Source: a virus. From it: DNA of 29,848 nt. How positions within the stretch are numbered: the stretch's first letter is position 1; each line of letters begins with the position of its first letter. Both the position numbers and the translations under genes were made by a program. Shown here in pieces: positions 5-18,644 of the stretch. Under the pieces are notes generated by a model. That model searched no databases. It worked only from the letters and a program-made list of their open reading frames with translations, and was not told where the DNA came from. The stretch spans positions 1 through 29,848 of the IMG/VR virus record IMGVR_UViG_3300020281_000096; one strand, 5' to 3'.

Positions 5-76
5 GGGAATGTCGCCTAAAGGTAAAGGCCCTCTGCTTATAACGGAGTGATTTGGGTTCAAGTCCCAACATTCCTA
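5..76 (+). tRNA. tRNA-Ile (anticodon UAU)
   Basis: A full cloverleaf can be drawn. The 7-bp acceptor stem is GGGAATG with CATTCCT (first pair G-U). The D stem is GCC/GGC, the anticodon stem CTCTG/CGGAG with one wobble, and the T arm TTGGG-TTCAAGT-CCCAA. The seven-base anticodon loop CTTATAA gives anticodon UAU, which would read AUA. No CCA is encoded. It is the first of three closely spaced tRNA genes. Confidence 0.85.
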
Positions 77-79
77 TTT

Positions 80-152
80 GCTTCCTTAGCAATCTGGTGA
101 ATGCAGCAAACTCATAATTTGCCTAAGGAGAGTTCGATCCTCTCAGGAAGCA
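80..152 (+). tRNA. tRNA-Met (anticodon CAU)
   Basis: The acceptor stem GCTTCCT pairs with AGGAAGC. The anticodon stem GCAAA/TTTGC closes a CTCATAA loop (anticodon CAU), and the T arm is GAGAG-TTCGATC-CTCTC. It lies three nucleotides after the preceding tRNA. CAU could mean elongator Met, or an Ile tRNA whose wobble C is changed to lysidine; the sequence alone does not decide. Confidence 0.85.
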
Positions 153-157
153 CCTAA

Positions 158-241
158 GGGACGGTGGCGGAATCGGTAGACGCACCAGACTTAAAATCTG
201 TTGAGATTTTTCTCGTGAGGGTTCAAGTCCCTCTCGTCCTA
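158..241 (+). tRNA. tRNA-Leu (anticodon UAA)
   Basis: This is a class II tRNA with a long variable arm. The D region has the usual cyanobacterial-type Leu sequence (GGCGGAATCGGTAGACGC), the anticodon loop is CTTAAAA (UAA), and the T arm is GAGGG-TTCAAGT-CCCTC. The acceptor stem GGGACGG pairs with TCGTCCT using wobbles at the ends. The first anticodon-stem pair looks like C-U, otherwise the fold is regular. It reads UUA, a codon favoured by AT-rich phage genes. Confidence 0.9.
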
Positions 242-6400: not shown

Positions 6401-8365
6401 ATGGCGAATATTAGAAAGCAGTTCAACTTTCGCAATGGCGTTCAAGTTGACGATGACAAACTTATTGTAAGTCCTACTGGTCTGGTTGGAATCGGTACTT
6501 CGGTTCCAACCGAAGCTTTGGATGTTCGTGGAAACGCAAAAATCGTTGGATTCGCCACTTTTAGTTCTGCATCTACGTCAAGTTTAACTGCTGTTGATTC
6601 TACTTTAACAACTGTTAATTTAGTAGATTCTATCATTGGTTCTGGTATTAGTATTCGTTCTGGTGTCATCACCGACACTGGTTCTGGTATTGTAACTTAT
6701 TATGGTGACGCAAGATACCTTCAAGGTATGCCTGGTTCGCAGTGGATTGATATTGATGTTGGTTTAGGATATACAAGCATTTATGCTCAAGGTAATGTTG
6801 GTGTGGGCACAGTCGATCCACGCTTTACCTTCCAAGTTGGTGGTAATAATATTGCAACACCAGCAGGTTTCTTCAGAGGTGTTGGCATCGGTTCAGAAGG
6901 TGATGTCTTCATCACAGGTATTACAACATCTGGAACATTTGTTGGTGTTGGATCGGATATAACTGGTCTTACGGGAGATAACATTGCATATGGAACTATC
7001 AGTCTTGATAGATTCCCATTGATTCCTGATAGTAAGTTAGAAGACGGTCAATCACTTGGTATCGTAACAACAACTGTACTTGACGCAACTGGTGCAGAAG
7101 TTGGTGTTGCAACTATCACTGACTTAACAGTTGAAGGGACACTTGTTGGTACTGCATCAACAGCACAAGGATTGACTGGTGTACCTGATATTATTGTTGG
7201 TGTTCTTACTGCAACCAATGTAGCAGCATCTAATTTTGTTGGTGGTATTACTGGTGATGTTGCTGGTACCGCATCAACGGCAAGAAGTCTGACACAAGAT
7301 GCTGTTGTAGATATTGATAATCTTCAAGTAGGACTTGCTACTGTAACTGGTACATTGATCTCAAATGGATCGGTTGGTATTGGAACGGATGCTCCATCTG
7401 TTGATCTAGAAATAAGAAATGCTGGAAATCTAGAAGTTAGACTTCTTGGTGATGGATCTTCAACTATTGGTCTTGGTAAGTCTGATAATATTCTTGGTGC
7501 TAATGCTGCTATAACATTTGGAAATGATTCAGGATTATATGATTACAGTAAGGATAATGCCCTAGACATTCTTAATAATGCTGGTGGCAACTTTAATTAT
7601 TACTTACAGGCAGGAAACTTTGTTGGTGTAAACACTGGTAGTTTCCACTGGCATAAGGGGATCAATAATAGATTGATGTCTCTTACCTATGAAGGAAAGT
7701 TGGGAATTGGTGTTACTGAACCAATCCACGAAATGCACGTTGTAGGTACATCAACTGTCACCAATGATCTCTTTGTTGGTAATGGTTTAGATGTATTTGG
7801 TGATTCTGTATTCCAGCAAGATTTGACAGTTAATGGTGCATTCACTGCTGGTACTGTCAATCTTGATGAAATTGTTGGAAATCTGACAGGAGATGTCAAT
7901 TCAACAGGAATCAATACAGTTGCTACTCTTGCTGCTAATAATTTTGTTGGTGTTGGTACTGATCGTTCTCCTAACTATCAAATCGTCCCTGAAAGATTTG
8001 GAGTCAACACACCAGGTCCTGCTCACGTATTTGTTGACGCAACTGGCAATATTGGAATTAAGACAACAAATATCTATAACCAAGGTATTACTGCACCAAC
8101 GACTGACGTTACAATCGCTAGCGTCGGTATAGGAACAACTACACCAAGGTGTGCAGTTGACTTCTCTAGTGCAAATAATAATGCTATGCTTGGTCCGAAT
8201 AGAGATACTGTTGCATACATTCTTCCTCCTAGATTGACAACATCAGAAAGAAATAATTTGACCAATACATTTAATACTGGTCTTGAAGAAGGTGCAATGA
8301 TTTATAATATGTCAACCCATAAACTACAAGTCTTCGACGGAACTACCTGGCAGGATTGCTTCTAA
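6401..8365 (+). CDS. Tail fibre-like virion protein with GIGT-x-P repeats, 654 aa
   Basis: Phage fibre protein built from repeated beta modules. The signature 'G-x-(V/L/I)-G-(I/V)-G-T-x-x-P' followed by a hydrophobic strand appears near residues 27, 130, 325, 435 and 572, with a weaker copy near 548. These repeats are typical of trimeric fibre shafts in cyanophages and other tailed phages. Between them lie strands with 'GTAST' and 'F.G..V' patterns. The last 45 residues (RLTTSERNNL through IYNMSTHKLQVFDGTTWQ) match a common fibre-tip ending. It has no S74 domain, unlike the upstream gene. The start at 6401 follows the octamer at 6379. Specific function (long fibre, short fibre or collar) cannot be assigned. 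Confidence 0.88.
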   Translation: MANIRKQFNFRNGVQVDDDKLIVSPTGLVGIGTSVPTEALDVRGNAKIVGFATFSSASTSSLTAVDSTLTTVNLVDSIIGSGISIRSGVITDTGSGIVTYYGDARYLQGMPGSQWIDIDVGLGYTSIYAQGNVGVGTVDPRFTFQVGGNNIATPAGFFRGVGIGSEGDVFITGITTSGTFVGVGSDITGLTGDNIAYGTISLDRFPLIPDSKLEDGQSLGIVTTTVLDATGAEVGVATITDLTVEGTLVGTASTAQGLTGVPDIIVGVLTATNVAASNFVGGITGDVAGTASTARSLTQDAVVDIDNLQVGLATVTGTLISNGSVGIGTDAPSVDLEIRNAGNLEVRLLGDGSSTIGLGKSDNILGANAAITFGNDSGLYDYSKDNALDILNNAGGNFNYYLQAGNFVGVNTGSFHWHKGINNRLMSLTYEGKLGIGVTEPIHEMHVVGTSTVTNDLFVGNGLDVFGDSVFQQDLTVNGAFTAGTVNLDEIVGNLTGDVNSTGINTVATLAANNFVGVGTDRSPNYQIVPERFGVNTPGPAHVFVDATGNIGIKTTNIYNQGITAPTTDVTIASVGIGTTTPRCAVDFSSANNNAMLGPNRDTVAYILPPRLTTSERNNLTNTFNTGLEEGAMIYNMSTHKLQVFDGTTWQDCF

Positions 8366-8370
8366 GAACT

Positions 8371-9405
8371 ATGGCAGTTAAATCTTCTGGAACCCTCAGT
8401 TTCACTAATATTAAAAATGAGTTTGGTTTACCACCAAATAAAAACTTTGGTGCATATAGAGTTAGTCAATCGGTAGGTGATCTATCAGGTCTTGCACTTG
8501 ACAATGATGATAATTTCAATGCTCTGATTCCAAAATCGGGGCAAATTAAATTTAGTGATTTTTATGGTAAAAGACTAAACGTTGTTGTTAATTTTTATAC
8601 TGGTGGTGATGAAATCAGACCAGCGACTGGAAAATCAAAATATGATGGGAAAAAAGTAACAGTTATTGGTGGATTTAAAAGTAGACCAAATAGCACAGCA
8701 GGACTCAGAATTTATTTGCACGTTAATAAAGATCTTGGTTCAAGTAAAGCGTCAAAGACACGTTGTGCATTGAGAACTGGTTCTTTTAGTAGCAGTGCGA
8801 TTGTATATGTTGATGTTGGTGATAATGGCGGAATTTATGGTGCAGGTGGAAATGGTGGTAATGGATATACTTGTGATGGAGGAAGTAGTGGCGGTGATGG
8901 AACTTCTGCACTTGGTGTTCAAACATCAGGAGTTAAGATTCGTGTGAAGAGTGGTGGTCGCATCCAAGCAGGATACGGCGGCGGTGGTGGTGCTGGTGGT
9001 GGTCATAATGACCCAGATAAGAATACCCAAGACCACGCCTCTGGTGGTGGTGGCGGCGGTGGCGGCGCTGGTTTCCCTAAGGGAGATGGTGGTAAAGGTG
9101 GAGACAATTCCTTTGGTAAAGGAGATGATGGTGGAAATGGATCTAGTGGATCTAGAACTGGCGGCGGTGGCGGCGGCAGTGGCGGTGATGGTGGCGGTTC
9201 CGAGGGTGGAACTGGTGGTGATGGTGGCGCTCCTGGCGATAATGCTGGTAAAGGTGGCAAAGGTAGTGGAAATGTTTGTAAGGGTGGTGGTAAAAGTGGT
9301 GGTTCCAATGGTGCTGCTATCAGAAAAGCGGGTTCTGGAAGTTTCTCTATAATATCTGGTGGTAGTCGCATTTATGGTTCTACAAGTGGAAGTGGAGTTT
9401 CATAA
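8371..9405 (+). CDS. Glycine-rich fibre-tip adhesin-like protein, 344 aa
   Basis: Residues 5-67 (SSGTLSFTNIKNEFG ... IKFSDFYGK) match the 'S.SDI..EFGG...SL..YY' N-terminal module of many phage fibre proteins. A beta-rich middle (68-150) follows. Residues about 153-315 are extremely glycine-rich (GGNGGNG, long G runs with scattered D, N, S, K). This resembles the polyglycine-II sandwich of T-even gp38-type adhesins, in which short variable segments between Gly runs bind the host receptor. I chose the ATG at 8371 rather than one 15 nt upstream because the product then begins MAVKSSGTLSF, as in the family. The stop is followed by a late-promoter octamer. The Gly-rich stretch is a likely site of recombination and slippage. 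Confidence 0.85.
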   Translation: MAVKSSGTLSFTNIKNEFGLPPNKNFGAYRVSQSVGDLSGLALDNDDNFNALIPKSGQIKFSDFYGKRLNVVVNFYTGGDEIRPATGKSKYDGKKVTVIGGFKSRPNSTAGLRIYLHVNKDLGSSKASKTRCALRTGSFSSSAIVYVDVGDNGGIYGAGGNGGNGYTCDGGSSGGDGTSALGVQTSGVKIRVKSGGRIQAGYGGGGGAGGGHNDPDKNTQDHASGGGGGGGGAGFPKGDGGKGGDNSFGKGDDGGNGSSGSRTGGGGGGSGGDGGGSEGGTGGDGGAPGDNAGKGGKGSGNVCKGGGKSGGSNGAAIRKAGSGSFSIISGGSRIYGSTSGSGVS

Positions 9406-9412
9406 CTAAATA
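9405..9412 (+). promoter_or_regulatory. Late-type promoter octamer (ACTAAATA) ahead of the oxygenase cluster
   Basis: ACTAAATA begins at the last base of the adhesin stop codon and ends 19 nt before the ATG at 9432. It is weaker than the other octamers (six of eight to TATAAATA) but has the same stop-overlapping placement. If active, it would give the oxygenase cluster late expression with the fibres. Confidence 0.5.
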
Positions 9413-9431: not shown

Positions 9432-9992
9432 ATGAAAGATTGTATTGATGTCTATGAAGAGGCATTTAGTGCCGAAGATTGTGAATGGTTCATTGAACAA
9501 TTTCATGAACTAGAAAAGCAATCTATAATGGTGAATAGTTCGTTAGATAATCATAGAGTAGATCACGTAGAAGCAAATTTACATCACTTTTACGATCTCC
9601 CTGCCTGGTCTTCCATAGGCACTAAATTTTTTAATGGACTAGATCCATTGTTAAAAGATTATGCTGAAACATACTCAATTTTGGGTAATGTTCCGTTATT
9701 GTATTATGATGTTAAGGTGAAAAAAATACCACCTGGTGGTGGTTATCACGCATGGCACTTCGAGAATTCAGCACTTGTGTCAGCGTCTAGAATGACTGTG
9801 GTTCAACTATATCTCAACACCATTGATGAAGGTGGAGAGACAGAATTTTTGTATATGAATAAAAGAATCCCTGCTGTTGAGGGTCGTGTTGTTATTTTCC
9901 CATCAGCATATCCATATACACACCGAGGAAATCCTCCCATCGGTCAGACCAAATATATTCTTACAACTTGGGGGATAATGCAATCAGAATGA
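9432..9992 (+). CDS. Fe(II)/2OG oxygenase, prolyl-4-hydroxylase-like, 186 aa
   Basis: A double-stranded beta-helix dioxygenase. The iron triad appears to be H109-x-E111 (in GYHAWHFEN) and distal H164 (YTHRGNP), with K174 (QTKYILTTW) as the likely 2-oxoglutarate anchor. The family usually has HxD; the acidic ligand here seems to be Glu. The 'LYLN-x6-GGETEF' strand (residues 127-139) and 'GRVVIFPS' (151-158) are typical of P4H-like enzymes. It is the first gene of the run that ends at 16605. Its stop overlaps the next start (ATGA), so the two are likely translationally coupled. The substrate is unknown; hydroxylation of a protein side chain is the usual chemistry. Confidence 0.85.
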   Translation: MKDCIDVYEEAFSAEDCEWFIEQFHELEKQSIMVNSSLDNHRVDHVEANLHHFYDLPAWSSIGTKFFNGLDPLLKDYAETYSILGNVPLLYYDVKVKKIPPGGGYHAWHFENSALVSASRMTVVQLYLNTIDEGGETEFLYMNKRIPAVEGRVVIFPSAYPYTHRGNPPIGQTKYILTTWGIMQSE

Positions 9993-10684
9993 GTGAACTA
10001 AATTGTGAAATCTTTAACATTTTTCCAACAACAATTTATGTTGGAGAAGTCGAAAATTGTGATAAACATAAGGAAAGTTTCTATAAAGTTTATCCAAAAT
10101 ATGACTACGAAGAGGATGATAAAAATAATACAGTAAGTGAAAATGTTGGCAATCCACTACTTCACTTAGATGAAGAACTAGATGAGTTGTTCTCCGATAT
10201 TATTTCTCACGTAAAAGCATATACTTGTGATGTTCTTGGATACAAAGATATATTCAATTACATTATAACCAAGAGTTGGTTATCTAGACATAGAAGTCAG
10301 AAATCAATTCCTTGGCACATACACGCAACAAGTCATATAGCGTTTGTATATTATGTCAATGCGCCTACAAATTGTCATAAATTAAAATTTAATAATCCAC
10401 ACAGCAAGAATAGTCTTTGGTTTGGAAATAAAGAGGGAAAGCACGATCATCTAAAAATGGTCGAGAATTACAATGAGATAAATGCAGAGACATTCTTTAT
10501 TCATCCACCAGAGGGAAGTGTTGCTTTGTTTCCTAGCACGTTGCAACACTCCACAGAATTTGTAAATGATTTTGATGGTGAAAGAATAGGAATAGTTGGT
10601 GATGTAACTTTGACTTTGAAAGAAGAATATCTTCAATTCTCAACTGGTTATATTGACCCTAAATATTGGAAGATCTATAACTGA
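9989..10684 (+). CDS. Fe(II)/2OG oxygenase, 2OG-FeII_Oxy_5-like, 231 aa
   Basis: The N-terminus (EIFNIFPTTIYVGEV) is the usual start of this family of small phage and marine bacterial oxygenases. The metal site is probably H110 and H112 (SIPWHIHATSHIAFVYYVN) with distal H187 (LFPSTLQHSTE); R199 (GERIGIVGDVTL) is positioned to bind 2-oxoglutarate. The ATG at 9989 is preferred to a TTG 21 nt upstream because it forms an ATGA overlap with the preceding stop and starts at the conserved region. The substrate is unknown. A second member of the same family is at 15477. Confidence 0.8.
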   Translation: MSELNCEIFNIFPTTIYVGEVENCDKHKESFYKVYPKYDYEEDDKNNTVSENVGNPLLHLDEELDELFSDIISHVKAYTCDVLGYKDIFNYIITKSWLSRHRSQKSIPWHIHATSHIAFVYYVNAPTNCHKLKFNNPHSKNSLWFGNKEGKHDHLKMVENYNEINAETFFIHPPEGSVALFPSTLQHSTEFVNDFDGERIGIVGDVTLTLKEEYLQFSTGYIDPKYWKIYN

Positions 10685-10685
10685 A

Positions 10686-11036
10686 ATGAAAGTCGTATTC
10701 AAGATTTTAGAATATCTACCTGAAGATGATCAGATTGTAGTGAACTTCTGCCGACAAAATGCACCCAAACCAGTAGACGAGCATAAACCTCTTGTCATTG
10801 ACTGTAAGCATATTGATATGACAGACAAAGTAAATCTTATAGAGTCTCTGACGCAGTTACTGACTCCACATATTTACAGAAGAGAATCTGAGGAACCCAC
10901 TCTTCCAGAAAATGTTGGAGGGGAAATGTTTTTTCCTGAAACTATCGAAGATTACATTGGTAGAGTAGTCTGCATTGATCTTAACGATCTTGTCAGAATA
11001 AAATCAAAACGTATGAGGAGAGTTGACATAGAATGA
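10686..11036 (+). CDS. Hypothetical protein in oxygenase cluster, 116 aa
   Basis: I recognise no domain. The protein starts with a probable strand (MKVVFKILEYL), has alternating strand/helix character, and ends basic (KSKRMRRVDIE). No oxygenase motif, signal peptide or membrane segment is visible. The ATG at 10686 lies one nucleotide after the upstream stop, and its own stop overlaps the next ATG (ATGA), so it is embedded in the operon. A role as substrate or accessory factor of the surrounding enzymes is possible but unsupported. Confidence 0.75.
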   Translation: MKVVFKILEYLPEDDQIVVNFCRQNAPKPVDEHKPLVIDCKHIDMTDKVNLIESLTQLLTPHIYRRESEEPTLPENVGGEMFFPETIEDYIGRVVCIDLNDLVRIKSKRMRRVDIE

Positions 11037-11524
11037 CTACATTCAATAGAACATATAGATCACCTAAATTCTTTCTCTGTATTCATCACACAGAGGAAGC
11101 AGAAGTTGGTTTTGAACCAGCAGAAGAAAGATTCTCACACTTCTCATTCATTTGTAGAGGTGGTGGGAGGTTTCACGCTCTGGAAAATGGTCGGTTTATT
11201 AGTCACGATAGTATGGAAACAAAGAAACTGTTTCCTGTTGGAAGATACATCAACTGCAATGTAGTTGGTGAGTCTGATGAAAACACAAGAGCAATTTCTT
11301 TTAACTCTTGGAAGAAGACTGATAAGTGGGAAGGAAAACTCCTTGAAAGTGGTTTAGTCAGTTCTGATAAACCATACTCATGTGTTGTATGCCTTGAAGG
11401 ATCTTGTACTGTCAATGGTAAAGAAATACAGGAATTAGATTATGCAGATCTAGTACAAGGAAAGGAGTATCCGATAGAAATACATGAAAACTCATACGTT
11501 GGACTATTTGAATTATGTCAATAG
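11033..11524 (+). CDS. Cupin-like beta-barrel protein, 163 aa
   Basis: The C-terminal 55 residues (CVVCLEGSCTVNGKEI followed by DYADLVQGKEYPIEIHENS) read as one half of a cupin barrel: a turn-rich 'LEGSCTVNG' strand pair, then a strand carrying H. A clear two-His-one-acid metal set is not visible, so it may be non-catalytic or bind a sugar or other ligand. It overlaps its neighbours by four nt upstream (ATGA) and ten nt downstream. In a cluster of other beta-barrel oxygenases it may be a divergent relative, but I cannot show this. Confidence 0.7.
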   Translation: MTTFNRTYRSPKFFLCIHHTEEAEVGFEPAEERFSHFSFICRGGGRFHALENGRFISHDSMETKKLFPVGRYINCNVVGESDENTRAISFNSWKKTDKWEGKLLESGLVSSDKPYSCVVCLEGSCTVNGKEIQELDYADLVQGKEYPIEIHENSYVGLFELCQ

Positions 11525-12144
11525 CAGATAAACTTGTAGAGAACAAAGACAAAATACAATCATTTCTCGATAATCTCAACTGCGACTCAGAAAAGTGGTT
11601 TGTATTCAATACTTCTGACGGTAGAAATCCTACACTAAGAAAGTTTTCGCATCGAATGAGTTACCGTATTATGGAAAATAATACGGAAATGTTCAAGTGT
11701 AGATTCATGTATCTCAAAGTGAAAAAAGATATGGAAGTATCTTATGAGCAATATGTTGGGGTACCTGCAATTACGGTTCCAGATATGGACATACCTTTCA
11801 ACAAATACGATGAAAGAGAAGAGTCTTATCTACGCACTGATATTTTTGGTGAACTTAGTGAATTATTCTCTGATGAAAGAATCTATACAGTTCACTACAT
11901 AGAAGCACTTGGACCTGTTGACCCACATCAGGATCCTTGGAGATATGATAAACAATATAGAAACATCATATTCTATGACAATATCCCCGATGATGTTCAG
12001 TTAAAGATAAAGGGAGAAGAAATACAGGTTCAGTCTCCTCAACTAACTAACTTTGGTAACGAGGTTCATACTTACCAATTCCAGACCAGACCATTCCCAC
12101 TTAAAATTTTACACATAGATTACGAAGACGATGGCATTTCTTAA
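11515..12144 (+). CDS. Putative Fe(II)/2OG oxygenase (HxD type), 209 aa
   Basis: The central motif GPVDPHQDPWRYDKQYRN carries H138-x-D140 and R149, the pattern of Asp/Asn-hydroxylase-like dioxygenases. A candidate distal ligand is H185 (GNEVHTYQF), and R192 or K197 may bind the co-substrate. The N-terminal 120 residues are not recognisable. The gene overlaps the upstream cupin-like gene by ten nt and the next gene by fourteen. The assignment is less certain than for its neighbours because the strand spacing is unusual. Confidence 0.65.
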   Translation: MSIADKLVENKDKIQSFLDNLNCDSEKWFVFNTSDGRNPTLRKFSHRMSYRIMENNTEMFKCRFMYLKVKKDMEVSYEQYVGVPAITVPDMDIPFNKYDEREESYLRTDIFGELSELFSDERIYTVHYIEALGPVDPHQDPWRYDKQYRNIIFYDNIPDDVQLKIKGEEIQVQSPQLTNFGNEVHTYQFQTRPFPLKILHIDYEDDGIS

Positions 12145-12799
12145 CACAGCAGATATTGGGGTTTGCAGTTTACTGGAAAGTAATTATGCAACAATAAGAG
12201 ATGAGTATTCGACATTCAAAACAGAATATCTTTACAATGAAAGTAGAGAGGATTTTGATGTTGATGATAGCGCCATCTGGGAATTGTGGCAAGAGGGGCA
12301 CAGATCTTCTTTAGATAGTGCAAAAAAGAATGAGGTTTATAGCGATCTTAATTGGGATGAGCACACAATCGTTCCAGTCAAAAAATCTCCCAACTGGTAT
12401 GGATTGTCTATTGATGATATGGGAATTTGGGAAGGTATTACGTTGGCAACGAGAGTTACAACACCATTTACATTAACATCAACACCAGTCTGTGATAGAT
12501 GGTTTCCACAAACTCTAAGTATTCTTAAAGGTCACACTGGTAGTGTGATAACCTCAGCAACTATTGCTGTTTTTCCAGCAAATAAAATTATTCCAAGGCA
12601 TAATGGATACGAAACTATTACTAGAATTCACTTACCATTATACGTTCCAACGGGTGATATTGGATTCTGTGTTGGGGAAGAGACAAGATCTTGGAGGACA
12701 GGAACGTGTCTAGCATTTAATGACATTATTGAACATAATGCCTGGAATAATACAAACAAGGATAGAATAGCACTTATCGTAGATATAATGAAAAGATGA
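12131..12799 (+). CDS. Aspartyl/asparaginyl beta-hydroxylase-like oxygenase, 222 aa
   Basis: Residues about 125-220 follow the Asp/Asn beta-hydroxylase pattern: FPQTLSILKG, then IPRHNG (H157), R165 before 'IHLPLYVP', W188 in 'RSWRTGTCLAF', H202 (EHNAWNN) and R212 near 'IALIVDI'. In this family iron is held by two histidines, here H157 and H202, without the usual carboxylate. The arginines fit 2-oxoglutarate or substrate binding. The N-terminal 120 residues are phage-specific. The ATGA overlap with the methyltransferase downstream points to coupled translation. The family hydroxylates Asp or Asn in proteins; the target here is unknown. Confidence 0.82.
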   Translation: MAFLNTADIGVCSLLESNYATIRDEYSTFKTEYLYNESREDFDVDDSAIWELWQEGHRSSLDSAKKNEVYSDLNWDEHTIVPVKKSPNWYGLSIDDMGIWEGITLATRVTTPFTLTSTPVCDRWFPQTLSILKGHTGSVITSATIAVFPANKIIPRHNGYETITRIHLPLYVPTGDIGFCVGEETRSWRTGTCLAFNDIIEHNAWNNTNKDRIALIVDIMKR

Positions 12800-13527
12800 A
12801 CGTACACGAATTATATGATGATACTTCTCCAGAAGTTTGGAAGAAAGTAATTGGTGAAGATCTTCACTATCACGTTGGTTGGGGTGAAGGTGATATTTTA
12901 CACAATGCAGTTGAGTATCTTTATCAGTTTATTGATAAAGAGTCTACGGTATTAGATTGTGGATGTGGATGGGGTGGTCCTGCTAAGGCAATCAAACGAG
13001 ATTTGCATTGTGACATTACTGCCATAACAAATTCACCAGTACAATATGATTACATAAAAGAGAATGTGCCCATAGATGTTACTCTGTGTGACTTACAGGA
13101 TTATAGTCCAACTAGAAAATATGACTGTGGCATTTTTATCGAATCATTCTGCCATCTGAAAAATCCAGAAGACGTTATAAAAAATATAAAAGATTCGTGC
13201 GATAAAATTATCGTTCGTGATTATGTCTTGAAAGAACTGAATTATCCAAGAAAGTATCTTGATAATTGGTTGATGACAATTTATTATAAAGAAGAGTTTG
13301 CGTCTATATTTGAAAAACACGGATATAAAATGACATATGATGAAGATCATTATCAATATGCATTAGAACCAACTGTGAATTATTGGTTAGAAAATATCAG
13401 TAAAATAGAAAAAGAAGAGAAAACACCACATATATTACTGTTAGAAAAAAGTGCTAGATACTTGAAGAAGCACTTACAAGACGTACTTAATTCTATTGAA
13501 TTATCAACAATGGTATTTGAAAAATGA
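12796..13527 (+). CDS. SAM-dependent class I methyltransferase, 243 aa
   Basis: The SAM-binding glycine-rich motif is near residues 51-65 (STVLDCGCGWGGPAKAI), followed by 'ITAITNSPVQ' and an acidic motif (VTLCDLQDY). The 'E-S-F-C-H-L-K-N-P' segment resembles post-motif regions of small-molecule/lipid methyltransferases such as the cyclopropane-synthase/sterol group. No DNA-methyltransferase catalytic motif (NPPY, DPPY or PC) is present, so a DNA target is unlikely. It overlaps both neighbours by ATGA, in the middle of the oxygenase run. O- or N-methylation of a product made by the oxygenases is a reasonable inference, not shown by sequence. Confidence 0.85.
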   Translation: MNVHELYDDTSPEVWKKVIGEDLHYHVGWGEGDILHNAVEYLYQFIDKESTVLDCGCGWGGPAKAIKRDLHCDITAITNSPVQYDYIKENVPIDVTLCDLQDYSPTRKYDCGIFIESFCHLKNPEDVIKNIKDSCDKIIVRDYVLKELNYPRKYLDNWLMTIYYKEEFASIFEKHGYKMTYDEDHYQYALEPTVNYWLENISKIEKEEKTPHILLLEKSARYLKKHLQDVLNSIELSTMVFEK

Positions 13528-14231
13528 TGTTAAATTACTTGAAAATAGCGCAGCACAAAGAAACTATTCTTGATGAGGTTGCGGAAGGAAAATTTAAGAT
13601 TGATATGTCTGATCATATCATTCATCTAAAATCATTCATTGATAAAGATACTTGTAAGAAGATTGTAGATGAACTTAAAGAACTAAAAGGAGCAGATAAG
13701 TCATCACAATATACTGATGGACTTGGCAATGATGAAGCAGATTCATTTTTTGATCCACAATCAGAGTCTCTTGAATTAGTTAAGGAGCGTATATTTGATC
13801 AAGGTATCAGACAGTATGCTGATCAAGTAAGATCTTTTAATTGGGCATATCATTATCATAAAAGATTTAGATACTCTGAGATGATTGTCAGAAGGTATCA
13901 TCCAAATTCAGAGTTAAGTTATCATCACGATGATATTATTCTAGAAGTATTTCCAAAGTGGTTCCCTAGAAGGCAGAACATATTAACGGCAAATATTTAC
14001 TTTAATGACACAAATGAGTATGAAGGAGGAGATTTATATTTTCCAAGTATAGATAAGTCGTTCAAACCCTCTGTTGGAGATGTAATTCTTTTCCCATCAA
14101 ATTGGATGTTTTATCATAGGGTTACGAAGATAACATCTGGCAATAGATATGCAGGAACTTTATGGTTCTTCTATGGTTCCGATAAGATTATGAAAAAACA
14201 ATCTGACCACGATAAGTATTTCAAAAAATGA
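13524..14231 (+). CDS. Fe(II)/2OG oxygenase, prolyl-4-hydroxylase-like, 235 aa
   Basis: A well-formed P4H-type domain: YHPNSELSYHHDDI with H134-x-D136, 'NIYFNDTNEYEGGDLYF' (157-173), 'PSVGDVILFPS' (182-192), distal H198 (FYHRVTKIT) and R208 (GNRYAGTLWFF) as 2-oxoglutarate anchor. The N-terminal part (DHIIHLKSFIDKDTCKKIV) matches the lead-in of prolyl hydroxylases. Two ATGs are adjacent (13524 and 13527); either may be used, and the first overlaps the upstream stop. It is the clearest oxygenase of the cluster. The substrate is unknown. Confidence 0.88.
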   Translation: MMLNYLKIAQHKETILDEVAEGKFKIDMSDHIIHLKSFIDKDTCKKIVDELKELKGADKSSQYTDGLGNDEADSFFDPQSESLELVKERIFDQGIRQYADQVRSFNWAYHYHKRFRYSEMIVRRYHPNSELSYHHDDIILEVFPKWFPRRQNILTANIYFNDTNEYEGGDLYFPSIDKSFKPSVGDVILFPSNWMFYHRVTKITSGNRYAGTLWFFYGSDKIMKKQSDHDKYFKK

Positions 14232-14953
14232 TTAGATATAAGATGTTTGAGAAGGAGATTACCTCAGGTAATCACGTCTCTTACCATTTCTGTGTTGATA
14301 AATTTGCAGACAACTTTCATCCTAAGTCAAGACAACACGATATTGAAAAACAACTGAGATATGTTGATATTGATTTGTCTCCATATGAACTAGGAATTAC
14401 TTCATCAAATACAACGTCAGATGGTGATTATATTCACGTCTCATATTTGAGAAGATTGAACAATGGTTTTATGAAACAAGAAGTATTAGATTACTTCAAT
14501 ATCAACGTAGATTTTCCAGTATTATACCTCACCAGAAAAGTTCCATTTGAATCTGGATACAAATGTGGATTCTATCTTGGAGCGTTCAAGAAATTTAATT
14601 CTGTATTTTTTGATGAAACTGTTTCTGTAATACAGAAATTCAAAGATAAATTTAAGGATGTCTTTCTTGCTGGCGATTTTACAAAAGATGGAGAGTTCAT
14701 TGATGATTCTATTAATATAGAAATTTTTCCATTCCAATCAAATTTTAATTATCTTGATATTAAAGAGATATTGATCAATGAATTTGGTGTGGTAGAAGAA
14801 AAGATAAGTTTGTATGACAATATGATGAAGTCATTCAACCCAAGTCTTTTTCACTTTCATATCAAAATTAAACTCTACAAGGACAGAGATCCTGTTGTTA
14901 AATTCTATCGTACTTACCCAAATAATCCATTTCAACTTAGGTACTTGCCATGA
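14228..14953 (+). CDS. Hypothetical protein in oxygenase cluster, 241 aa
   Basis: I do not recognise this protein. It is rich in aromatic residues and Lys, with alternating strands, and has no signal peptide or membrane segment. Several histidines occur (YHFCVDK near 19; FHFHIKIKL near 213) but there is no HxD...H...R oxygenase order. The last 30 residues (VVKFYRTYPNNPFQLRYLP) look like a conserved core. It is coupled on both sides by ATGA overlaps, which argues that it works with its neighbours. At 241 aa it is large enough to be a separate enzyme or a substrate-binding partner. Confidence 0.75.
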   Translation: MIRYKMFEKEITSGNHVSYHFCVDKFADNFHPKSRQHDIEKQLRYVDIDLSPYELGITSSNTTSDGDYIHVSYLRRLNNGFMKQEVLDYFNINVDFPVLYLTRKVPFESGYKCGFYLGAFKKFNSVFFDETVSVIQKFKDKFKDVFLAGDFTKDGEFIDDSINIEIFPFQSNFNYLDIKEILINEFGVVEEKISLYDNMMKSFNPSLFHFHIKIKLYKDRDPVVKFYRTYPNNPFQLRYLP

Positions 14954-15438
14954 TCTCCGCACAAGATCTTCATACATTATATGAATGGGCAAAGAAAACT
15001 AAATTTCCAACTAACAAGAAAGCACCAGTAACAGAAGGTTACTGTGATGTTTTTGTGCCACATTACTGGTTAAAGAGTACCGCTAAGTCAATTCTTCTTA
15101 GGAAGAAACTGATGACAGAAGAAGTAAAAAATATCTATCAGAACAGCGACATATTGTACTCTGGATACTCTCTATTTGAACCAGGAACAGTGATAAACCC
15201 CCATAAAGATCCAAACATATACAGAGAACCTTACAAGCGTATTCAGGTGCCTCTGAGCATCCCTGAGAGGGAGAAATGTTATATGACCTGGGGTGGTAAC
15301 AGGATACATTGGGAGGAAGGTGTTTGTCAAGTCTACAATGTTATGCATAATGTTCACGATGGTGCGAACTTATCAGACAGACCAATGGAGTTTCTGTTCG
15401 TGGATGTAAAACTTGACACAATCGTGGAATGTCAGTAG
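14950..15438 (+). CDS. Aspartyl/asparaginyl beta-hydroxylase-like oxygenase, 162 aa
   Basis: A compact domain with the family order: YSLFEPGTVINPHKDPN (H85-x-D87), R97 in 'YKRIQVPLSIP', 'MTWGGNRIHWEEGVCQVYN' with W121, H136 (MHNVHDGAN), R144, and a final strand 'MEFLFVDVK'. H85 and H136 are the likely iron ligands. It is shorter than the other hydroxylases here and is almost all catalytic domain. It overlaps the upstream unknown gene by ATGA. A 38-nt gap follows it, the only sizeable break in the cluster. Confidence 0.82.
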   Translation: MISAQDLHTLYEWAKKTKFPTNKKAPVTEGYCDVFVPHYWLKSTAKSILLRKKLMTEEVKNIYQNSDILYSGYSLFEPGTVINPHKDPNIYREPYKRIQVPLSIPEREKCYMTWGGNRIHWEEGVCQVYNVMHNVHDGANLSDRPMEFLFVDVKLDTIVECQ

Positions 15439-15476
15439 AATATGCTTTGTGAGCGTTCAAGGGTGTACTTTAGATC

Positions 15477-16103
15477 ATGTATGGAGTCGATCATTTACAA
15501 GTATTCCCAATCAGTATATTCAGAACACAGATTTACAACAATAACAAAATAAAAAAATATCTTCAACAAGATATTCTAGATAGCGTCGATGATCTATCGA
15601 TACCTAAGGATTGGTCAACAGATCGAATACTTACTTCTTTTGGTACTGATAGTGAGATTATCGATAGAAATAAAACACTACTAGAAACAGAGTATAGAAA
15701 TTGTATTCTTGATATTTTCGATAGAGAAGTTGACTTTAACTTCTTGGATATGTGGTATAATGTATATCAAGACGGTGAATATCAAGAAGAACATGATCAT
15801 CTAGGTAATCCTTTTTATCATTCTCATTTTTCTTTTATACACTTTTTATCATTTGATAATACTATTCACCGTCCACCAGAGTTCAAAGATCCACTAGCAC
15901 AGATTCGTAATCTATGTTTTGAATTAGAATCTACTGGATGTAAAGAACTTTATATTCCAAAGATTTCTGAGGGTGATGTGCTAATGTTTCCTTCGTATCT
16001 TTTGCACTGTGTTCGTCCTAGTAAACCTTCAAACTATCCTAGGATTACAATATCATTTAATATATCAGTAACTAGATATGGAGAAGACATTAGAGATAAT
16101 TGA
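15477..16103 (+). CDS. Fe(II)/2OG oxygenase, 2OG-FeII_Oxy_5-like, 208 aa
   Basis: Same family as the gene at 9989. The N-terminus LQVFPISIFRTQI is family-typical. H106-x-H108 (EYQEEHDHLGN) lies before a strand pair, followed by 'SEGDVLMFPSYLLHCVRP' with distal H177 and R189 in 'YPRITISFNIS', the standard closing motif. The start at 15477 follows a 38-nt spacer with only a weak ribosome-binding sequence. Its end overlaps the next gene by 26 nt. It shares little sequence with its 9989 paralogue outside the motifs, so a recent duplication is unlikely. Confidence 0.82.
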   Translation: MYGVDHLQVFPISIFRTQIYNNNKIKKYLQQDILDSVDDLSIPKDWSTDRILTSFGTDSEIIDRNKTLLETEYRNCILDIFDREVDFNFLDMWYNVYQDGEYQEEHDHLGNPFYHSHFSFIHFLSFDNTIHRPPEFKDPLAQIRNLCFELESTGCKELYIPKISEGDVLMFPSYLLHCVRPSKPSNYPRITISFNISVTRYGEDIRDN

Positions 16104-16605
16104 TGATTTCTTACCTGATCACGACTATCTAAACGTCGTTGATTATTGTCTTCGTGCTGATTATTACTGGGGTGAAAGAGATGATACGAGTTTCACTCCA
16201 ACAGGGATGGTCCACGATATTTACGATTGTGAAGATACACCAGTAAAAGAGAGCAATCGGTGGATTTATGACCTATTCTGGGACAATACAAAACATTTGT
16301 GTCCGAACTTAAAACTGTATCGGATGTATGTCAACTCATTTGCACCAGGAGAAAATCCATATTTTCACACTGATAGCACAAATGGTGAAGACATTACGTT
16401 TTTGTATTATGTTCCTACTGCAAATTGGGACATTGATGATGGTGGAGAAACACAATTCTTTCACAATGATGAAATGATTGGTGTGATGCCTTTTCCGAAT
16501 AGAATGGTATATTTTGATGCTACTATTCTACACAAGGCAACATCGTTTCGTGATAGGTGGAGATGGACAGTAGCAGTCAAGTACAGTAAGACAGACGGTT
16601 GGTGA
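16078..16605 (+). CDS. Fe(II)/2OG oxygenase, prolyl-4-hydroxylase-like, 175 aa
   Basis: The start MEKTLEIIDDFLP is the usual entry to small P4H-like enzymes. Motifs follow: 'GENPYFHTDS' with H97-x-D99, 'DDGGETQFF' (120-128), 'FPNRMVYFDATILHKATSF' with H152, and R162 in 'RWRWTVAVKY'. No Shine-Dalgarno precedes the ATG, which lies inside the previous gene, so coupling to that gene is likely. It is the last gene of the cluster; a hairpin terminator follows its stop at once. Confidence 0.87.
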   Translation: MEKTLEIIDDFLPDHDYLNVVDYCLRADYYWGERDDTSFTPTGMVHDIYDCEDTPVKESNRWIYDLFWDNTKHLCPNLKLYRMYVNSFAPGENPYFHTDSTNGEDITFLYYVPTANWDIDDGGETQFFHNDEMIGVMPFPNRMVYFDATILHKATSFRDRWRWTVAVKYSKTDGW

Positions 16606-16671: not shown

Positions 16672-17829
16672 GTGATCACCCTTCGCCCCCACCAGCAAGA
16701 TGCTCTGGCAGCGATGATGAAGCACAGCAAAGGACAGGTTATCATCCCCACGGGTGGTGGCAAGACCATTTGTATGATCAAAGATGCAAAGCGTCAGTTT
16801 GATGCTGATGGTCCTACCACTATTGTTGTGGTTGCTCCTCGTATTCTGCTTGCAGAACAACTCTGCAAAGAGTTTCTGGAATTGATTGATGATGTTGCTG
16901 TCTATCACGTTCACAGTGGTGAGACTGAACATTTCAGCAGCACTAAACCTGCGCTGATTGCCAACTGGCATCGTCAAGCATATCGCAATCAACTTATCTT
17001 TACCACATATCACTCTCTGCACAAAGTTCAAGAGGCAGGTATTAACGTAGACACCATTTATTTTGATGAAGCGCACAATTCTGTCCAGCGTAATTTCTTC
17101 CCTGCCACTGAACATTTTTCTGCTGACGCTGATCGCTGCTATTTTTTCACTGCTACTCCTAAACACTCTGTTACCATCTTCAAACCTGGGATGAATGATG
17201 GTGCTGTTTATGGTCAAGTGATCTGCAACGTTCCTGCTCCTAAGTTGGTTGAAGAAGGTTACATTCTTCCTCCTAAGGTTGTTGTGAAGCAACTCCCTCA
17301 GGGTGAATATCAGCAGTCTGATGAGCAGAACTTGATTGAGACTATTGATGACAATTCTCTCAACAAAATCCTGATTGCTGCACGTTCTACCAAACAGATT
17401 GTGCGTCTTGTTTCTCAGACTGATTTCTGTATTCAGTTGCGTGAGCGTGGTTACAACTGGATGTATATCACTTCCAAGACTGGTGCTATCATCAACGGTA
17501 TCAAAGTTTCCCGTGAAGAGTTCTTCAAGACTCTGAATCAGTGGGGACAAGATGACACCCGTTTCGTGATTATGCACCACTCCATCCTCTCTGAGGGTAT
17601 CAATGTCAAGGGTCTTGAAGCAGTCCTGTTTATGCGTAATATGGACTATATTGGTATCAGTCAGTCAATCGGTCGTGTGATCCGTTTGGGTGGCGCTGAG
17701 AAGACTTTTGGACTGGTATGTGTACCTGTCTTCGATAAAGTTGGTATCGGTACTGCTAAGAGCGTTCAGGCGGTTGTTGATACTGTCTTCCAACAAGGTG
17801 AACCTGCTATTTCTGTTGTCCGTCGATGA
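16672..17829 (+). CDS. DEAH-box superfamily 2 helicase, 385 aa
   Basis: ATP-dependent helicase/translocase of the ResIII-like type. Motifs in order: LRPHQQDAL at the start (Q-motif-like), Walker A PTGGGKT (26-32), VAPRILLAEQL (motif Ia, 54-64), DEAH (132-135), TAT (160-162), ILSEGINVKG (motif V, 305-314) and QSIGRVIRLG (motif VI, 331-340). The start is GTG at 16672, just before the conserved region. It overlaps the DNA methyltransferase downstream by ATGA, so the pair is made together. Such pairing suggests processing or protection of modified DNA; a role in recombination or repair is an alternative. Confidence 0.9.
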   Translation: MITLRPHQQDALAAMMKHSKGQVIIPTGGGKTICMIKDAKRQFDADGPTTIVVVAPRILLAEQLCKEFLELIDDVAVYHVHSGETEHFSSTKPALIANWHRQAYRNQLIFTTYHSLHKVQEAGINVDTIYFDEAHNSVQRNFFPATEHFSADADRCYFFTATPKHSVTIFKPGMNDGAVYGQVICNVPAPKLVEEGYILPPKVVVKQLPQGEYQQSDEQNLIETIDDNSLNKILIAARSTKQIVRLVSQTDFCIQLRERGYNWMYITSKTGAIINGIKVSREEFFKTLNQWGQDDTRFVIMHHSILSEGINVKGLEAVLFMRNMDYIGISQSIGRVIRLGGAEKTFGLVCVPVFDKVGIGTAKSVQAVVDTVFQQGEPAISVVRR

Positions 17830-18644
17830 ATAAACTTTACTGGGGCGATTGTCTTGATGTAATGTCCAAACTGCCTGATGGTTGTGTGGATATGGTGTTT
17901 TGTGATCTTCCTTATGGAACGACACAAAATGATTGGGATTGTTTGATCCCTTTTGAAGATCTATGGAAACAATACAATCGTGTTGTGAAAGAAAATGGTG
18001 CTGTTGTTCTTACTGCACAACCACCGTTTGATAAGATCCTTGCCTGTTCTAACTTGAAATACTTCAAGTATGAATGGATTTGGGAAAAGAATAAAGCAAC
18101 TGGTCATCTTAATGCAAAGAAGATGCCAATGAAGGCACACGAAAATGTGTTGGTGTTCTATCGTAAGTTGCCAACATACAATCCCCAGATGACACAAGGG
18201 CACAAACCGATGAACGCTGTGCTGCCACGGGACAATATGCCTGCGCCAGATAAAAAACGCAATTATAACCACGTTGATAAGCGACTGGGCAATCCTGGTG
18301 GTGGAACTACACGTTATCCCCGTGATGTTTTGAAGTTTCCTGTCATCAACAATGATGATCCTTTGAAGTTTCATCCAACACAGAAACCTGTGCAAATGAT
18401 TGAATACTTCATCAAAACATATAGCAATGAGGGTGATGTTGTGATGGATAATTGTATGGGTTCAGGTTCTACTATCATTGCCTGTATGAATACTAATCGT
18501 CAATACATTGGTATTGAGAGTAGTGGAGAATACTATGAAAAAGCAACCGAATGGATCAACAGTTACAACAAAGTCGAACCATTCGTGACAGATGAAGAAG
18601 TGTCACATACGACACCGAATCCTCTGATGGATGCGTTATACTAA
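17826..18644 (+). CDS. DNA methyltransferase, N6-adenine/N4-cytosine, beta class, 272 aa
   Basis: Catalytic motif IV comes first (DLPYGTTQNDWD, residues 27-38), then HPTQKP (183-188, motif X region) and the SAM-binding motif I (MDNCMGSGST, about 207-216). This order defines the beta class. DLPY and the GTT-x3-WD context are typical of phage N6-adenine enzymes; N4-cytosine activity cannot be excluded. No target-recognition domain of known specificity is visible. It is coupled to the helicase by ATGA. Likely roles are protection of phage DNA from host restriction or epigenetic marking. Confidence 0.9.
   Translation: MNKLYWGDCLDVMSKLPDGCVDMVFCDLPYGTTQNDWDCLIPFEDLWKQYNRVVKENGAVVLTAQPPFDKILACSNLKYFKYEWIWEKNKATGHLNAKKMPMKAHENVLVFYRKLPTYNPQMTQGHKPMNAVLPRDNMPAPDKKRNYNHVDKRLGNPGGGTTRYPRDVLKFPVINNDDPLKFHPTQKPVQMIEYFIKTYSNEGDVVMDNCMGSGSTIIACMNTNRQYIGIESSGEYYEKATEWINSYNKVEPFVTDEEVSHTTPNPLMDALY

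Follow-up and report, generated by a model that had tools for sequence, protein, structure and literature searches.

The locus and its genes

The window analyzed here (29,848 nucleotides, or 29.8 kb; positions 1 to 29,848 of IMG/VR virus record IMGVR_UViG_3300020281_000096) comes from an ocean cyanophage of the T4-like type. In it, twelve plus-strand open reading frames, lettered A to L in order, occupy positions 9432 to 16605 between gly, a gene for a glycine-rich adhesin, and the helicase gene uvsW. An original prediction, made from the letters alone, had described a cluster of 2-oxoglutarate (2OG) oxygenases with a methyltransferase behind the fibre genes, in twelve consecutive and nearly all overlapping genes. 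This observation is confirmed: the twelve genes are present where predicted, and 9 of the 11 junctions overlap, with gaps at 10684/10686 and 15438/15477. Judging by pairwise ratios of nonsynonymous to synonymous substitution of 0.03 to 0.24 against relatives, with no internal stops, all twelve are under purifying selection. Two findings are new: one of the twelve proteins has a predicted prenyltransferase fold, and the adhesin and the oxygenases encoded between the fibre genes and uvsW are gained and lost together. We discuss below whether these genes form a tailoring operon for the adhesin.

Seven of the eight proposed oxygenases (A, B, F, H, J, K and L) pass the curated Pfam cut-offs, and their iron ligands show little or no variation within each family. 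The prolyl 4-hydroxylase-like call holds for A (9432 to 9992; PF13640, 1.2e-8), for H (13524 to 14231; PF13640, 1e-12), a 2OG-FeII_Oxy_3/PhyH oxygenase that also matches PhyH and, weakly, WelO5, and for L (16078 to 16605; PF13640, 6.2e-8), as does the 2OG-FeII_Oxy_5 call for B (9989 to 10684; PF13759, 1.2e-14) and K (15477 to 16103; PF13759, 9.9e-12). The ligands are HxE...H in A (invariant in 11/11 sequences), HxH...H in B and K, and HxD...H in H, J and L. Different 2OG oxygenase families favor different variants of this motif, HxG...H being that of the AspH type. Two genes had been called Asp/Asn hydroxylase-like. The call stands for F (12131 to 12799; PF05118, 4.7e-26), the only protein to combine a PF05118 match with conserved HxG...H ligands and an arginine at +10; J (14950 to 15438) matches PF05118 (3.4e-10) and phrog_25655 (1e-41) yet has HxD and lacks the conserved arginine, and is better described as Asp_Arg_Hydrox-like. 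The eighth protein, E (11515 to 12144), is a probable, divergent oxygenase: it has no Pfam match, but H138, D140 and H185 (HxD...H) are invariant among its homologues, and it matches the J family weakly (hhalign E 0.002 to 0.005, at a probability of just 7 to 13%) and phrog_25655 at E 0.07. A hapalindole-type pathway, suggested by the WelO5 match of H, was rejected, as no isonitrile synthase was recognized among the twelve genes.

A, H and L also match phrog_274, phrog_2297 ("DNA endonuclease V") and phrog_3531 ("ferrochelatase"), yet they are clear PF13640 members. Cyanophage genes bearing these two names appear, from their profiles, to be misnamed 2OG oxygenases (16078 to 16605 in the window; 7969 to 8457 and 11354 to 12470 in the S-SM1 locus, L047). 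A lone J homologue, with 41 to 45% identity, is found outside the fibre region in P-HM2 (L049, 11992 to 12480), P-HM1 and MED4-213.

The methyltransferase of the original prediction, G (12796 to 13527), is borne out as a S-adenosylmethionine-dependent enzyme by its match to Methyltransf_25 (9.6e-9), and the cupin-like D (11033 to 11524) is now a predicted bicupin (AlphaFold2 [AF2] model, predicted local distance difference test [pLDDT] score of 91), whose best structural match is HutD (1yll; Z 13.7 over 155 residues). D has no Pfam match, no conserved metal ligands and no invariant histidine among its homologues. Two genes had been left as unknowns. The small protein C (10686 to 11036), conserved in 15 sequences, is still without an assignment, matching no family in Pfam or the PHROG profiles; nor did it show a profile match to GC742, the small protein preceding GC743 in S-PM2-type phages, to which we had considered it might be related. 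The other, I (14228 to 14953), now has a predicted PT-barrel fold.

Association of the oxygenases with the adhesin

The gly gene (8371 to 9405, plus strand) lies directly before the operon, and the fibre genes 621 and 6401 (phrog_529 and phrog_3269 tail proteins) lie upstream. Its product is 28% glycine, with an N-terminal anchor and a glycine-rich domain, and has no Pfam match at E <= 1, collagen included. A proline of the GxPxGxGG type in the glycine-rich domain (P241 in the 349-residue frame starting at 8356) is present in 26/26 aligned homologues, and a gly homologue precedes the oxygenase module in all 13 contigs in which that flank is visible.

We compared 44 intervals between the long fibre gene and uvsW, taken from contigs with the module, from isolates and from 80 further UvsW loci; IMG/VR contains at least 599 UvsW matches. 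At least one oxygenase was found in 20 of the 24 intervals with a glycine-rich gene versus 1 of the 20 without (Fisher p 1e-7), and oxygenases were present in all 14 intervals with a member of the strict gly family. The comparison across cyanophages that had been proposed, of the gene set with the type of fibre, therefore came out in favor of an association, with the oxygenases tracking the glycine-rich adhesin. The simplest unit consists of the fibre, gly, A, one other oxygenase and uvsW (L089, L094, L099, L118, L128 and L140), and in about fifteen loci the fibre gene leads directly to uvsW with neither gly nor an oxygenase. Two loci, L128 and L130, have UvsW proteins that are 98% identical and differ exactly by the adhesin-oxygenase unit, of which L130 has neither part. 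The association persists when loci are collapsed by UvsW identity at 90% (p 6e-5) or 85% (p 3e-4).

A conserved core with a predicted prenyltransferase fold

Searches of IMG/VR proteins added to the window 20 contigs of uncultured viruses that encode I. Genes most often run in the order fibres, gly, A, B, C, D, [E, F, G], H, I, J, [K, L] and uvsW, A and B being displaced in some loci; the order of D, H, I and J is constant over about 20 contigs, and H, I and J are adjacent in every locus covering the trio, with I doubled in one (L029). E, F and G are absent from three loci (L020, L022 and L023), while in two others (L018 and L019) a predicted sulfotransferase (PF03567, 2e-10) takes the place of E and G is absent. 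Because E-F-G is dispensable, a sulfotransferase can be swapped in and H-I-J always stay together, the module is a core (C, D, H, I and J) with optional parts (E, F and G) and variable flanks (K and L among them), not one fixed pathway.

In a 188-kb contig (G001), the D-J block lies apart from the fibres, about 20 kb from the usual slot, where fib1, fib2, B, gly, A, C and uvsW are grouped. The block and the adhesin thus remain in one genome even when unlinked, in this single case. A second gly-family adhesin, carrying a long insertion, is encoded in the same contig ahead of the principal long fibre (G001:C1, 179668 to 180903).

The composition of this core bears on what is the main rival to adhesin tailoring. 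The D-J core may be a small pathway for a prenylated, hydroxylated and methylated small molecule, or may modify a host lipid or glycan, and would then lie near the fibres as co-exchanged host-interaction cargo. Among solved structures, G is closest to small-molecule N-methyltransferases and to cyclopropane synthases (E 5e-13), most of the PT-barrel enzymes among the matches to I act on small aromatics, H has its PhyH and weak WelO5 matches, and in G001 the block is physically separate from the fibres, all of which would suit such a pathway. We nevertheless consider it rather unlikely, as no scaffold-making enzyme was recognized among the twelve genes, the block, where separated, is still accompanied by the adhesin, and the simplest units are made up of the adhesin and oxygenases alone. 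Bacterial relatives of G are weak only, several of them cyanobacterial. Elsewhere, a G-type methyltransferase lies directly 5' of a very long fibre gene (L032, 2349 to 3544; L034, 243 to 1465; L036, 10001 to 10717), with an L-type oxygenase adjoining it in L032 and L034.

The model of I (241 residues; AF2 pLDDT 92.2, built from 22 sequences) has ten paired strands with intervening helices, forming five beta-beta-alpha units. Its top Foldseek matches in the PDB are aromatic prenyltransferases (NphB at E 6.7e-5, CloQ and EpzP), with PagF lower down, and VIA-align gave Z scores of 11.3 for TleC, 10.8 for NphB, 10.6 for PatF and 10.4 for the arginine prenyltransferase DciF. There are 126 chains at Z >= 8 and the matches span residues 1 to 239, at sequence identities to prenyltransferase structures of only 4 to 11%. 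The assignment of I to the PT-barrel (ABBA) prenyltransferase fold is firm as a prediction. Activity in prenyl transfer is something that we can only infer, because the fold is predicted but there is no match to a prenyltransferase family, either in Pfam or NCBIfam for the 22 members of the I family or among PDB sequences. Near-invariant residues on the strands of the model, located without superposition on a ligand (E8, H20, R103, H211-x-K213-x-K215 and K225-x-Y227), include basic, tyrosine and acidic side chains as expected of a diphosphate pocket and are candidates for one. It is also possible, if somewhat unlikely, that I has a PT barrel but does not transfer prenyl groups, serving in binding or in other chemistry, and that the rest of the operon performs ordinary hydroxylation, a reading compatible with a tailoring operon. 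The missing family match in all 22 members and the identities of 4 to 11% would fit an inactive protein, while the conservation of H20, R103, K213, K215, K225, Y227 and E8 on the barrel strands counts against this reading. Searches with tblastn against 50,697 phage records found no match for I, or for G, and a scan of genome contigs for a bacterial origin of I gave no relative.

Signals and genes around the operon

T4-type late promoters have the form NATAAATA, which NTAAATA resembles. A late-promoter-like CTAAATA is found on the plus strand at 9406 to 9412, between the adhesin gene and the operon, and NTAAATA occurs within 56 bases around the adhesin stop codon in 9/13 loci, where VTAAATA has a frequency of about 0.02 per 50 bases in the same loci. 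The motif is not enriched over the whole window (2 found versus 4.8 expected). The late-type signal that had been predicted is thus weakly supported at the adhesin-operon boundary. Sigma-70 promoter-like sites were no commoner than in shuffled sequences; terminator-like sites numbered 12 in the window versus 6.1 expected.

The right border of the slot is formed by uvsW (16672 to 17829, plus strand; phrog_16, 2e-70), the end of which is overlapped by a gene for an N6/N4 DNA methyltransferase (17826 to 18644). Genes for tRNA-Ile(tat), tRNA-Met and tRNA-Leu occupy the left edge of the window (5 to 241).

The fibre-uvsW slot in isolates

Oxygenase clusters beside cyanophage fibres are already known, and their density here is ordinary. 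S-SCSM1 is reported to have 24 2OG oxygenase genes and S-SZBM1 nine (PMC9602691 and PMC9146016), so that cyanophages carry up to two dozen of them. The fibre-uvsW interval of S-SM1 contains annotated genes for 2OG oxygenases, leprecan, "denV" and "ferrochelatase," and profiles recognize seven oxygenases there. The density of the cluster had been taken as a sign of a dedicated pathway; because the slots of isolates carry similar runs, density alone is no evidence of this, and we reject that argument.

Other enzymes are found in this slot. In S-WAM1, a tryptophan halogenase (PF04820, 2.5e-93; L051, 6816 to 8399) directly follows glycine-rich fibre genes. One S-PRM1 protein combines a PLOD-type glycosyltransferase (PF25342, 9e-46) with GT25 (L056, 12497 to 14341); its neighbors are 2OG oxygenases and large fibre genes, and the set looks like one for hydroxylation and glycosylation of a fibre. 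A JmjC_2 protein occurs in the same interval among isolates, and TauD and sulfotransferase genes occur in the slot of contigs with the module. Tailoring enzymes thus seem to have a hot spot between the fibre genes and uvsW.

Cyanophage 2OG oxygenases have so far been explained by 2OG/NtcA nitrogen signaling and DNA repair (PMC3037559, PMC2984593 and PMC9146016), and the slot could be a hot spot of another kind, gathering oxygenases that each serve host metabolism or DNA repair as independent cargo. Those published proposals (PMC3037559 and PMC9146016), the many oxygenase genes elsewhere in cyanophage genomes (PMC9602691) and the proximity of uvsW favor this explanation. Independent cargo would not, however, be expected to keep a constant order of D, H, I and J over about 20 contigs or to be nearly absent from slots lacking an adhesin, and a prenyltransferase fold and a bicupin suit neither published proposal. 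We consider this explanation quite unlikely.

The operon as a candidate for adhesin tailoring

We see an even chance that the twelve genes form an operon, expressed late, whose products tailor the glycine-rich adhesin encoded immediately upstream. This reading draws on the tracking of adhesin and oxygenases, the L128/L130 pair, the G001 contig, the invariant flank in 13 of 13 contigs, the late-type motif, the PT-barrel fold, the purifying selection and the neighbors found in the slot. In such an operon, A, B, K and L, together with H and J of the core, would hydroxylate residues of the adhesin, the invariant proline of GxPxGxGG being a candidate site. H, I and J would act in sequence, to hydroxylate, prenylate and hydroxylate, with I moving an isoprenyl group from host dimethylallyl diphosphate or geranyl diphosphate onto a side chain or onto a hydroxyl that H or J has introduced. 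In the loci having them, F and G would add further hydroxylation and methylation, and the modified adhesin would meet the host surface differently. We infer the adhesin as substrate, the order of H, I and J and the optional marks of F and G. As acceptors of the prenyl group, two residues were rejected: tryptophan, which the adhesin of the window does not contain, and Tyr190, which is conserved in 12/13 module-linked adhesins and absent from that of the window.

Fibre decoration had been one of the original hypotheses. It has gained from the tracking over 44 intervals, from the near-identical backbones and from G001, with a substrate that is proposed only. Its chemistry, given as hydroxylation and then methylation, needs amending: it misses the prenyltransferase-fold protein, the most distinctive component, and the invariant trio is H-I-J, without the methyltransferase.

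Several points weigh against adhesin tailoring. The association fades when loci are collapsed more strongly by UvsW identity (p 0.013 at 80% and 0.15 at 75%), and relatedness therefore explains part of it. There are four glycine-rich genes of other families without an oxygenase and one interval with oxygenases but no glycine-rich gene. G is most like small-molecule enzymes, structures were predicted for two proteins only (D and I), and a predicted PT-barrel fold would by itself be no proof of prenyl transfer.

A wider and more doubtful possibility is that phages use a dedicated, exchangeable operon to prenylate, hydroxylate and methylate the receptor-binding adhesin that they encode, borrowing natural-product tailoring chemistry (a PT-barrel prenyltransferase, 2OG oxygenases and a methyltransferase) to diversify the tip of the virion, with a halogenase, glycosyltransferase or sulfotransferase possibly taking this role elsewhere. 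The substrates of cyanophage 2OG oxygenases and of the sporadic halogenases are not known, with nitrogen signaling and DNA repair as the proposals so far. If adhesin tailoring is correct, such "auxiliary metabolic genes" belong to host recognition, and the isolates S-PM2, Syn1, S-SM1 and S-WAM1 make this testable. A prenyltransferase fold in phages would likewise be a new source of enzymes. In a literature search limited to open-licence papers, we found no relevant report of a phage ABBA or cyanophage prenyltransferase, no earlier report of a prenyltransferase-fold gene in a phage and no report of fibre tailoring; the adhesin-linked behavior of the oxygenases is also not described there.

Comparison with known systems

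The fibre-uvsW clusters of S-SM1, S-PM2 and S-CAM1 occupy the same slot as the operon, with oxygenases resembling A, H, K and L and similar fibre neighbors. No isolate slot examined has a block of C, D, I and J, as the window does. Fold matches to I in BFVD include proteins of S-CAM3, S-RIM44 and S-CAM1, which by length and place belong to the T4-GC743 family, encoded directly 5' of uvsW and found also in S-PM2 and Syn1 (L058, 12001 to 12888, S-PM2p230; L062; L063, 29473 to 30450; L064, 27040 to 28029). The S-CAM1 and S-CAM3 proteins join GC743 by profile (E 3e-15). I and GC743 are not one sequence family, having no profile similarity (hhalign E 0.22); they share the slot and a fold match, which is weaker and of the fold only. 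T4-GC743, a conserved family without annotation that precedes uvsW in many isolates, is a candidate for a second family of PT-barrel, prenyltransferase-like proteins.

Among PT-barrel prenyltransferases, which include the cyanobactin enzymes PatF, PagF and KgpF, I is similar in its five beta-beta-alpha units, its whole-length match and the polar residues of its barrel. It differs from PatF, PagF and KgpF in having no detectable sequence similarity, in being shorter (241 residues) and in being phage encoded, with no protease or precursor-peptide gene recognized alongside. A cyanobactin-type cluster for ribosomally synthesized and posttranslationally modified peptides is not apparent, since neither a subtilisin-like protease nor a YcaO family member is present among the twelve genes (no search was made for a short precursor peptide). 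Cyanophage flavin halogenases (prnA), of which VirX1 of Syn10 is reportedly one, resemble the operon as tailoring enzymes of a natural-product type without a known natural substrate; their chemistry is different, and none is present in the window. Compared with a collagen-type hydroxylation system, the adhesin is glycine rich, yet it is not a collagen Gly-X-Y protein. In organization it resembles the gp38-type glycine-rich adhesins of T-even phages, in which a separate small glycine-rich adhesin is likewise encoded behind the long fibre.

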